20,824 nt of DNA from a virus. Position numbers and translations under genes: made by a program. A model generated the notes under the pieces. It saw nothing but the letters and a program-made list of their open reading frames with translations, was not told the DNA's origin and did not search any database. The stretch is taken from positions 1-20,824 of IMG/VR virus record IMGVR_UViG_3300042464_000242; one strand, 5' to 3'. Each line of letters opens with the position of its first letter. Position 1 is the stretch's first letter. Positions 13,136-20,824 of the stretch are shown in pieces.

Positions 13136-13796
13136 CTTGAACGAATTACTAAGCAAAAGCCTAAGCGCCTACGATAAAAACAGAGACCGCAGCAAGCAAG
13201 TAGAAATCGGTCCGAGCAGTATCGGAGGCTGCCGCCGCAAGGTTTACTACCAGCTTCAAGACGCACCGAAAACAAACCCGGACACAGAGGCACTCGCGTC
13301 AATCCTCGGAACATTTATCCATAGCGGAATAGCCGAAGCAATCAAACGCGAAGACCCATTCGGCGATAACTTCCTAATAGAACAGGCCTACGAGTACGAA
13401 GGACTCAAAGGCCATTGCGATTTATTTATTAAGGACATTGGCCTCGTCGTGGATTGGAAGACCACAAAGAAGAAGAGCCTGAGATACTTTCCGAGCGAAC
13501 AACAGCGTTGGCAAGTACAACTCTACGGATACCTACTAACGAAAAACGGTCACACAGTAAACGAAGTATCTCTAGTAGCAGTACCCCGCGACGGCGACAT
13601 GAGCGAGATACGAGCACACCGGGAGCCATACGATGAAAACATGGCACTCGCAGCAATCAAGTGGCTGGAAGAAGTCAAGGAATTGGCGGCAGCAAATACG
13701 CCTCCGCCGGCAGAAAAGTGGGCAGGGTTCTGCGCCTCTTACTGTTCTTACTACGACGCGAGCGGAGAAAACGGGTGTCCGGGTACGACCAAATAA
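13128..13796 (+). CDS. Cas4/RecB-like PD-(D/E)XK nuclease with Fe-S cluster cysteines
   Basis: A 222-residue protein with the RecB-family nuclease core: His65 in GTFIHSG, GHCDLFI with Asp98, VVDWKTTKK with Asp109 and Lys111, and a QxxxYG-type motif (Gln129 to Tyr133). One N-terminal cysteine (Cys35 in GGCRRKVYY) and three C-terminal ones (Cys202, Cys206, Cys217) reproduce the 4Fe-4S layout of Cas4 and AddB. Such enzymes are 5'-3' or bidirectional ssDNA exonucleases. No Cas1, Cas2 or CRISPR repeat is nearby, so this is a phage recombination or replication exonuclease rather than a CRISPR adaptation gene. Confidence 0.85.
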   Translation: MIDLNELLSKSLSAYDKNRDRSKQVEIGPSSIGGCRRKVYYQLQDAPKTNPDTEALASILGTFIHSGIAEAIKREDPFGDNFLIEQAYEYEGLKGHCDLFIKDIGLVVDWKTTKKKSLRYFPSEQQRWQVQLYGYLLTKNGHTVNEVSLVAVPRDGDMSEIRAHREPYDENMALAAIKWLEEVKELAAANTPPPAEKWAGFCASYCSYYDASGENGCPGTTK

Positions 13797-14176
13797 ATTG
13801 GGCTGACGCAGCTTGTGAAGGCGCACCGACAAACCTCTTCTACATAGTGGAAGAAGACCGCTCAATACTGCAACTAATCAGCGCAGATTCTTTACGAAGG
13901 ATTTGTGTCACTTGTCCGATTTGGAATAAGTGCCTAGCCTACGCAATGCGCAACGAGACATACGGAGTGTGGGGCGGATTACTTTCCAAAGAGCGCACAG
14001 CACTAAAGAAAAACGACGGTTCGCACGCGCAGGAAATAGCAACACGCGAATTAACAAAATACGGAATACAACGAGAAGAGATTGAGGCAATCACGCATGA
14101 GTATCAGAATTATGAGCGAGGTCTGGCGAACAAACTTACCGACAACAGAAAAGATGATACTGCTCGTAATCGCTGA
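13775..14176 (+). CDS. WhiB-like Fe-S transcription factor
   Basis: A 133-residue protein starting at GTG 13775, supported by GGAG at 13764-13767 with 7 bases spacing; upstream in-frame codons lie inside the nuclease gene. It has the WhiB signature: WADAACEG with Cys14, then CVTCPIWNKCLAYA with Cys44, Cys47 and Cys53, and the GVWGG turn (64-68) followed by a basic segment. Members bind a 4Fe-4S cluster and act on the principal sigma factor of actinobacterial RNA polymerase. Phage copies (for example WhiBTM4) can act as dominant negatives on host WhiB regulators. The C-terminal 60 residues are an extra helical region. It overlaps both neighbours. Confidence 0.9.
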   Translation: MSGYDQINWADAACEGAPTNLFYIVEEDRSILQLISADSLRRICVTCPIWNKCLAYAMRNETYGVWGGLLSKERTALKKNDGSHAQEIATRELTKYGIQREEIEAITHEYQNYERGLANKLTDNRKDDTARNR

Positions 14177-14897
14177 CCACGCGACAGACGAAGGCGATAA
14201 TGCGTGGCCAAGTCAGATGACGATAGCGACCCGGGCAAGTTGTAATGTCCGGACAGTTCAGCGCAGCATTAACAAGCTTGTGGAAGACGGCTGGTTGTGG
14301 GTGGAAAAGCGCGGAGGCGGGTCGGCAACCTGTCGAGACGACAGGAGACCGCACCGGTACACAATCGTGTTAAAGAAGTTACGAGGCGACAAAACGCCGC
14401 CGCGTCAAGTGGAACGAGGCGACAATGACGACGCTAACGACACGACATTGACGACGGCAACGGGGCGACAATCACGTCTCATGAAACACCCTAATGAAAC
14501 ACCCATTGAAACACCCGGAGAGTTCGATTTATTTTGGAAGACCTATCCAAGAAAAACAGCAAAGGGAGCAGCCCGAAAAGCATGGGACAAACTGTCAGAG
14601 GAAAACCGGAAAGCAGCCCTAGCCGGGGCAAAGAGATTCGCAGCAGACCCGAACCGAGAAGACACATACACGCCATACCCGGCGACATGGCTCAACGCAG
14701 AGCAATGGGAGGACGAGCCGCTGCCACCGGCTAAGAAGTCACAGGAGGCCATCAGAGCCGAGGAGACAGCAAGGGCTAAGGAAAAGGCAAGGCGCGACCG
14801 GGAAGCGTCTGAGAGGCTGGCACAGCTTCAAGAAGAGGCAGCAGCAAGAGCAGTACCAATGCCGGATTACCTGAAGGATTTACTGAAGCGCGTCTAG
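14097..14897 (+). CDS. Replication initiator, O/DnaD-like, with N-terminal HTH
   Basis: A 266-residue protein; the ATG at 14097 (MSIRIMSEVW) is preferred over a frame start at 14082. Residues 1-92 form a helix-turn-helix domain (LLVIADHATDEG, WPSQMTIATRASCNVRTVQRSINKL). Residues 97-141 are a low-complexity linker, and 143-207 a C-terminal domain (FDLFWKTYPRKTAKGAARKAW, YPATWLNAEQWEDE) typical of phage replication initiators that recruit a helicase. A charged helical tail follows. The linker is encoded by DNA repeats that look like an origin (see repeat entries), as in lambda O. No helicase loader is seen in the window. Confidence 0.8.
   Translation: MSIRIMSEVWRTNLPTTEKMILLVIADHATDEGDNAWPSQMTIATRASCNVRTVQRSINKLVEDGWLWVEKRGGGSATCRDDRRPHRYTIVLKKLRGDKTPPRQVERGDNDDANDTTLTTATGRQSRLMKHPNETPIETPGEFDLFWKTYPRKTAKGAARKAWDKLSEENRKAALAGAKRFAADPNREDTYTPYPATWLNAEQWEDEPLPPAKKSQEAIRAEETARAKEKARRDREASERLAQLQEEAAARAVPMPDYLKDLLKRV
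14382..14471 (+). repeat. Three CGRGGCGACAA repeats inside the replication gene
   Basis: CGAGGCGACAA occurs at 14382-14392 and 14415-14425, and CGGGGCGACAA at 14461-14471. The first two are read as Arg-Gly-Asp, the third in another frame as Gly-Arg-Gln, so similarity is at DNA level. They precede the TGAAACACCC repeats and may be part of the replication origin. Confidence 0.6.
14482..14516 (+). repeat. Three TGAAACACCC iteron-like repeats (candidate origin)
   Basis: Exact copies of TGAAACACCC lie at 14482-14491, 14495-14504 and 14507-14516, that is with 13- and 12-base periods, about one helical turn. The first copy is read in a different frame from the other two, so DNA, not protein, is being repeated. 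An AT-rich stretch (TTCGATTTATTTTGG) follows directly. Position in the linker of an O-like gene mirrors the lambda origin. Confidence 0.65.
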
Positions 14898-20390: not shown

Positions 20391-20651
20391 ATGGCAATAG
20401 TCATCACGGAAGAGGCCAGCGTCACCGACATTGACGAGGCAATGCGTCACATACAAAACATGTTGGCGGAACCCGGCATTGAAAAAAACCGACGGAACAT
20501 TCTGTTAAGCAGCTTGGACGACCTTCTCGACGCGCGACTTGAAATTACGCAAACGCAGGAATTCTTGCTAGAGTTGGAGCAGGAGGCGAACAATGGAAAT
20601 CAAGGAAGTAGCACTAATAACATTAAAGCCTTACCCGAACAATCCGCGTAA
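20391..20651 (+). CDS. Small acidic hypothetical protein
   Basis: An 86-residue protein of two or three helices (VTDIDEAMRHIQNMLAEPG, NILLSSLDDLLDARLEITQTQEFLLELEQEA). No Shine-Dalgarno is obvious; it starts 9 bases after the previous stop. Its 3' part overlaps the ParB-domain gene by 59 bases in another frame. No family recognised. Confidence 0.5.
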   Translation: MAIVITEEASVTDIDEAMRHIQNMLAEPGIEKNRRNILLSSLDDLLDARLEITQTQEFLLELEQEANNGNQGSSTNNIKALPEQSA

Positions 20652-20824
20652 AGGCGACATCAATCTGATTGCGAAAAGCCTAGAGACATACGGCCAATAC
20701 AAACCGATTACGATTAACAAACGAACAAACGAAATCCTCGCGGGTAATCACACAGCGCAAGCAGCACGCAAACTCGGTTGGACAACAATCAAGGCTGTTT
20801 ACATTGACGCAGACGAAAACACCG
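20593..20824 (+). CDS. ParB-like nuclease-domain protein, 5' part (runs off the window)
   Basis: The frame is open to the right edge. A good ribosome-binding site (AGGAGG at 20581-20586) precedes the ATG. The visible 77 residues are the start of a ParB N-terminal domain: VALITLKPYPNNPRKGD, an IAKSLETYGQYKPITINKRT segment and the key LAGNHTAQAARKLGW box (usual GxxR replaced by GNHT). In phages this domain is often fused to a DNA methyltransferase, but the rest is outside the window. Confidence 0.8.
   Translation, partial: MEIKEVALITLKPYPNNPRKGDINLIAKSLETYGQYKPITINKRTNEILAGNHTAQAARKLGWTTIKAVYIDADENT

Follow-up and report, generated by a model that had tools for sequence, protein, structure and literature searches.

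Origins of replication that lie inside the gene of their own initiator are a plan already known from lambda and SPP1. In lambda, iterons followed by an asymmetric A-rich region are located within the initiator gene O (PMC7466680, PMC5043065), and oriL of SPP1 is located in gene 38, with direct repeats for the initiator and an unwinding region within this initiator gene (PMC6316719). For RK2 it was described that four 13-mers adjoin the iterons, that TrfA needs them for its single-strand binding and contacts one of their strands, and that altered 13-mers abolish replication (PMC4081077). No description of the origins of phages with initiators of the phrog_270 / HTH_36 type was found in the literature searched.

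The array described here lies in an initiator gene of this type. It is part of a window of 20,824 nucleotides, which is the whole stretch of viral DNA that was analysed (IMG/VR record IMGVR_UViG_3300042464_000242, positions 1 to 20,824), and comprises iterons (A) followed by a second tandem repeat (B). Judged from the sequence and its relatives, this array is likely the replication origin of the phage, placed inside its own initiator gene and equipped with initiator-specific iterons.

With the lambda origin in gene O, which is also found in Stx phages, and with gene 18 of P22, the locus shares four iterons at a spacing of about 20-24 bp. As in lambda, the iterons lie between the DNA-binding and the C-terminal domain of the initiator and are followed by a strand-asymmetric A/C-rich stretch. 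However, the N-terminal domain of lambda O and P22 18 is PF04492, which was not matched here, while the present one is HTH_36. In addition, the iterons lack the internal inverted repeat of the 18-bp iterons in the lambda O-type origin, the repeat after the iterons is of the GAACC/GAAACACCC type instead of the ACAAAAGA type of lambda and P22, no lambda P was found, and the AT-richness is mild. The comparison with lambda O made in the sequence-only reading of the window therefore holds for the plan, i.e. iterons inside the initiator gene, but not for the family. A look at lambda O (L435:1341-1500) and P22 gene 18 (L436:535-680) showed that their iterons differ, while the post-iteron top-strand repeat ACACAAAAGACA...ACAAAAGA is common to both. 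This shared repeat may be the PF04492 counterpart of B.

Direct repeats, here presumably for the initiator, and an unwinding region, here a candidate one, inside the initiator gene are also known from SPP1 oriL, but SPP1 has its own loader and a DnaB-type helicase, for neither of which the 36-39 kb relatives of the window gave a match. With RK2 oriV the locus has in common that the iterons are followed by a short tandem array of 12-13-mers; the RK2 13-mers, in contrast, are AT-rich and lie outside the initiator linker, whereas B comprises about half G+C and is coding. The type of N-terminal domain and the position of B in the linker are the same in the phrog_270 / HTH_36 initiators of Arthrobacter phage Galaxy (gp42) and SfV (orf39), which differ in their iteron sequences.

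The initiator gene and its two repeat families

The gene and the parts of its protein are located as follows:

14097..14897, plus strand: replication initiator gene, 266 aa, ATG at 14097; the MSI start is kept in relatives
14130..14297, plus strand: HTH_36 winged helix-turn-helix, presumed iteron-binding domain (PF13730 match, AlphaFold model)
14391..14486, plus strand: linker of the protein with predicted disorder (pLDDT < 50 almost throughout); most of the array-encoded part
14523..14720, plus strand: C-terminal helical domain FDLFWKTYPRK...WLNAEQWEDE (phrog_270 comparison, AlphaFold), presumed to contact the helicase or replisome

The N-terminal domain of the protein matches PF13730 (HTH_36) with an E of 7e-19 and 67.8 bits (cut-off 25), and the best PHROG match is phrog_270, replication initiation protein (6e-40), which together place the protein among the HTH_36 / phrog_270 phage replication initiators. 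The AlphaFold model (mean pLDDT 78) comprises a winged helix with helices at residues 16-28, 40-47 and 51-64 plus wing strands, a linker and a helical C-terminal part. Residues 99-130 of the linker show a pLDDT below 50 with one exception, and this predicted disordered stretch approximately coincides with the stretch encoded by the array, which follows the HTH domain and precedes the C-terminal FDLFWKTYPRK domain. A Foldseek comparison with the PDB gave a MarR-type wHTH and the DnaD N-domain as nearest structures, i.e. only generic wHTH similarity with none at E<=0.001, and a PDB sequence search with the initiator gave no convincing match. The same C-terminal domain was also found in proteins whose N-terminal domain is a different one and whose genes adjoin those of a helicase or loader. 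Directly 5' of the initiator gene, a WhiB-like regulator (13661-14176) points to an actinobacterial host.

The array and its flank comprise the following features:

14382..14399, plus strand: iteron A1, CGAGGCGACAAAACGCCG, frame 0; synonymous diversity 0 in the GGC GAC codons
14415..14432, plus strand: iteron A2, CGAGGCGACAATGACGAC, frame 0
14438..14455, plus strand: iteron A3, CGACACGACATTGACGAC, second frame; degenerate in the window, CGRGGCGAC in most relatives
14461..14478, plus strand: iteron A4, CGGGGCGACAATCACGTC, third frame
14482..14491, plus strand: B repeat 1, TGAAACACCC, in a frame different from that of B2 and B3
14495..14504, plus strand: B repeat 2, TGAAACACCC
14507..14516, plus strand: B repeat 3, TGAAACACCC
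14480..14519, plus strand: strand-asymmetric stretch rich in A+C (75%), formed by the B repeats; ranks in about the top 0.5% of the windows of the contig
14519..14558, no strand assigned: candidate unwinding region; with 48.9 kcal/mol (2nd percentile of the contig) the 40 bp of lowest stability near the array

The three copies of CGRGGCGACAA noticed in the sequence-only reading are exact and start at 14382, 14415 and 14461; the same accuracy was found for the three copies of the second family at 13- and 12-base periods (TGAAACACCC at 14482, 14495 and 14507). An alignment of the iterons extends the unit to about 18 bp with the consensus CGRGGCGAC-WHT-KACGMC, in which no dyad is evident. A fourth, degenerate copy (CGACACGACATTGACGAC, 14438-14455) had been overlooked. 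With this copy included, the starts are spaced by 33, 23 and 23 bp, the 23-bp period being regular, and the four iterons together occupy all three reading frames. When synonymous codons were shuffled within the gene with the protein unchanged, a mean of 0.34 strict iterons was obtained compared to three observed (P=0.0015), and P was similar or smaller in most other family members. Loose 11-mer matches across the whole window showed no excess (12 observed, 12.1 expected), and it is therefore the exact, clustered copies that count. A candidate fifth iteron at 14334 (CGAGACGAC) fits the loose pattern but was excluded, since the synonymous diversity in its codons is close to normal (0.95, 0.77 and 0.98 of expectation). 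In one relative (L007; G006:10098-10107, minus strand), an inverted exact iteron CGAGGCGACA lies between iterons 1 and 2.

The B set begins 3 bases past the iterons, and B reads WWWRAAMCAYCC in relatives. As an element, B is defined here by GAACC/GAAMCAYCC copies in tandem that lie 10-18 nt from one another, occupy at least two frames and directly follow the iterons; the window shows TGAAACACCC three times, in two frames and right after the iterons. The synonymous shuffles gave a mean of 0.40 B sites compared to three observed (P=0.0015). In six genomes, the B stretch comprises 75-80% A+C on the coding strand, which is about the top 0.5% of windows in each contig, and in five of the six the least stable 40 bp near the array start 34-43 bp past B repeat 1 and rank between the 2nd and the 6th percentile of the contig. 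The AT-rich run that had been noted after the repeats holds in part: the 40 bp at 14519-14558 are of low stability (2nd percentile), whereas the A+T content is mild, with 62% for the best 50-mer near the array (91st percentile). No RNA element was found at the array (folding z of -2.05; no Rfam match in the window; no tRNA). An overlapping gene was considered and rejected, as every alternative frame is interrupted in at least one relative; the best candidate, an antisense frame across 14373-14520 of the window, is open in 34 of 48, and its conservation is too low for a gene.

Constraint and concerted change in relatives

In a set of 50 distinct genes, taken from IMG/VR contigs related to the window, the synonymous diversity over 14382-14520 was reduced to 0.15-0.45 of expectation, compared to about 0.8-0.9 along the rest of the gene, and recovered at once on either side. 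Many repeat codons are invariant at synonymous sites. The array is conserved in all close relatives; its absence from these had been named in advance as an argument against the reading. The repeats also change in concert. In L020, GAA replaces GAC at the end of all four iterons, while L032 and L058 show a GTC end in all three remaining iterons and in three of four, respectively. A CCC core was found in three iterons of L014, L016, L017 and L019, and a GCG core in all four iterons of L056/L059. Since the copies are read in different frames, such concerted change is not readily due to pressure on the protein. Selection on the DNA, which the sequence-only reading had derived from one frame-shifted copy in each set, is thus borne out by the synonymous trough, the three frames and the concerted change.

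The proteins with the GCG-core iterons (L056/L059) are the same ones in which the recognition helix is changed from RTVQR to RQVRR. Covariation of this kind would be expected for iterons that are read by the HTH, and although it stems from a single lineage and is suggestive only, the joint change of the recognition helix and all four iterons lends support to the earlier proposal that the initiator's own HTH is the ligand.

In the five 36-39 kb relatives, exactly one iteron cluster per genome was found, always in the initiator gene. The same holds true for the B chain in four of the five; in the remaining one (G006), two B sites are kept in the array, which is below the chain rule used. HTH_36 proteins occur once per genome. 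Searches for a DnaB helicase, a family A polymerase, lambda P and a DnaC/IstB-type loader, all of which gave matches in control genomes, detected none in these five relatives, whose contigs may be fragments; a lambda P-type loader (PF06992) was likewise absent from the six records, which may be fragments too. Since no helicase, polymerase or loader was detected, the phage is probably dependent on the replisome of its host, for which the initiator would be the obvious recruiter. The cumulative GC skew, which had been suggested as a check, did not back the reading: it is monotone or featureless in the window and the five relatives and shows no inflection at the array, a weak test as the genes all point one way.

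The B repeat in other phages

When 2.9 million viral contigs were searched for exact copies of GAACCATCC-N4-GAACCATCC, 14 loci were obtained, eight of them in such initiator genes, including distant genes with other iterons. The pair AACCATCC-N3-GAACCATCC gave 72 viral loci; among the 70 open frames scanned, HTH_36 was present in 47 and phrog_270 in 52. In bacterial genomes, the repeat pair lies mostly in unrelated genes, and HTH_36 was found in just three of 73 open frames of at least 60 aa, although it is the only family recurring among the bacterial matches listed. Compared to the 47 of 70 viral frames, this argues against B as a general bacterial motif.

Since these scans start from the motif, the test was repeated with genes that had been collected solely through the similarity of their proteins. 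Several named phages show the array clearly: the Galaxy initiator gene carries AGAACCGTCCTTGAACCGTCCTTGAACCGTCCAGTAGAACCATCC in three frames, copies of GAACCAGTC were found in SfV, ST64B and Serratia BZS1 and likewise in Vibrio D77, and GAACC copies occur in the initiator genes of Pseudomonas TC7, Bordetella PHB09 and EBPR podovirus 2. In a set of twelve divergent lineages (mean N-domain identity 32%), GAACC ranked top of all 1,024 5-mers for repetition 10-18 nt apart, with seven of the twelve lineages, all out of frame. No 5-mer reached seven lineages in any of 500 synonymous shuffles, and in a wider set of 17 GAACC was again the top 5-mer. A marine phage family showed its own synonymous trough over iterons and B (0.06-0.25, compared to about 0.5-0.85 elsewhere), which is deepest over B (0.06-0.14). 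This family was chosen through a motif hit, whereas its trough is independent of the motif. The enteric family was left out of this test as its sequences are too similar, and the marine linker as a query gave no match in the phages collection.

B was found in 12 of 18 HTH_36 initiators and in none of five proteins that have another N-domain and resemble them in the C-terminal domain only (Fisher P=0.014, the lineages not being fully independent). Accordingly, B tracks the HTH_36 N-domain and not the C-terminal domain or the host. The HTH_36 initiators of Eeyore, YeP2, KS9, PMBT6 and Bumble showed no clear B array. In Eeyore and YeP2 (L414, L415), which lack GAACC arrays, the linker encodes DPSVN...DPS repeats, possibly a shifted form of B. 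Another replication-like phage protein family (L097, L103, L137, L139, L149, L157, L205) carries GAACCATCC repeats that encode DEPSDEPSD within the linker; its N-terminal domain is apparently different. Altogether, two repeat families in one array, regarded as less usual in the sequence-only reading, turned out to be no local oddity, as the second family is widespread in HTH_36 phage initiators, following unrelated iterons in phages of both Actinobacteria and Proteobacteria. In the full-text literature searched, which excludes most subscription papers, B is apparently undescribed, although this does not prove its novelty.

Proposed origin function and alternative explanations

Direct repeats with regular spacing and concerted evolution are seen here; in iteron-type origins, repeats of this kind are bound by the cognate initiator, as is presumed for the present ones. 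For the origin activity that we infer, copies of the initiator would bind the four 18-bp iterons with their N-terminal winged helices and thereby distort the DNA. The strands would open, or be held open, at B (GAAMCAYCC every 12-13 bp, with a top strand rich in A and C) and at the low-stability stretch directly downstream, and the host helicase would be loaded there. Most simply, B would be a sequence-specific single-strand contact for a conserved part of the initiator, comparable to the RK2 13-mers and TrfA. The C-terminal domain would then recruit the host replisome. A role of B in single-strand binding or opening is favoured since its place and period resemble the RK2 13-mers, and by this analogy it is assumed here.

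Some of the evidence could also be read differently. Since B varies little among phages with unrelated iterons and distant hosts, as expected of a widely conserved reader, the iterons could be the initiator-bound origin core and B a separate site for a host protein (e.g. DnaA, a nucleoid protein or a helicase/primase). However, the association of B with the HTH_36 N-domain points to the initiator, and the mostly unrelated genes around the bacterial repeat pairs look chance-like, so that this division of labour is considered unlikely, if worth keeping in mind. Much less probable is an operator array, in which the repeats, bound by the initiator or a repressor, would control transcription across the gene and have no origin function. 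An HTH protein beside clustered sites and a weak promoter-like match at 14506-14535 would agree with it; the sites, however, lie 285 to 420 bases into the gene and not at its promoter, the promoter-like matches amount to 2 compared to a shuffled expectation of 0.9 +- 0.9, and no second cluster was found at any promoter in the five relatives. Furthermore, an operator would leave the B repeat and its spread among initiators with other iterons unexplained.

The repeats could also originate from the protein, if the linker were selected for RGD or ETP/EPS peptides and the DNA repeats arose by codon reuse or slippage. Although some copies in one frame do encode RGD and ETP, and KPSxEPS is encoded at this place in many phages, this origin is very improbable in view of the three frames with concerted change across them, the frozen synonymous sites, the synonymous shuffles that fail to reproduce the repeats and the predicted disorder of the linker. 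For B, the multiple frames and the synonymous shuffles rule out a peptide motif. A partition (parS-like) or other segregation site is scarcely credible: tandem repeats presumably bound by an HTH protein would suit it, and a ParB_N-like open reading frame starts at 20593, but this frame is 6 kb off and equally resembles phage ParB-like nucleases/methyltransferases and partition proteins, and the array lies within the initiator gene, whose HTH changes with the iterons. The frame itself (20593-20824, at the window edge) has a ParB_N-like domain and matches phage ParB-like nucleases and methyltransferases.

The reading as an origin within the initiator gene can tentatively be extended to the whole group. 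Within HTH_36 origins, B possibly serves as a conserved element for opening or loading. We likewise put forward, with some reserve, a two-part origin common to HTH_36 phages, in which the iterons diverge freely together with the recognition helix while the GAACC-type 11-13-mers stay constant. It is conceivable that in such an origin B, constant across phages of Actinobacteria and Proteobacteria, is read, probably single-stranded, through a feature conserved in the initiator or in the replisome of the host.

For most of the phages that are known from sequence alone, the origin is unmapped. If the two-part signature holds, the origins of many HTH_36 phages could be read directly from the initiator gene, and the pairs of iteron and recognition helix would form a natural data set for initiator specificity. 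With a second element that stays constant despite the turnover of the iterons, short oligonucleotides and a small protein could be used to test how non-DnaA initiators open DNA strands and hold them open. The GAACC-type element would, if this is true, be a general opening or loading code common to a very large class of origins in phages.
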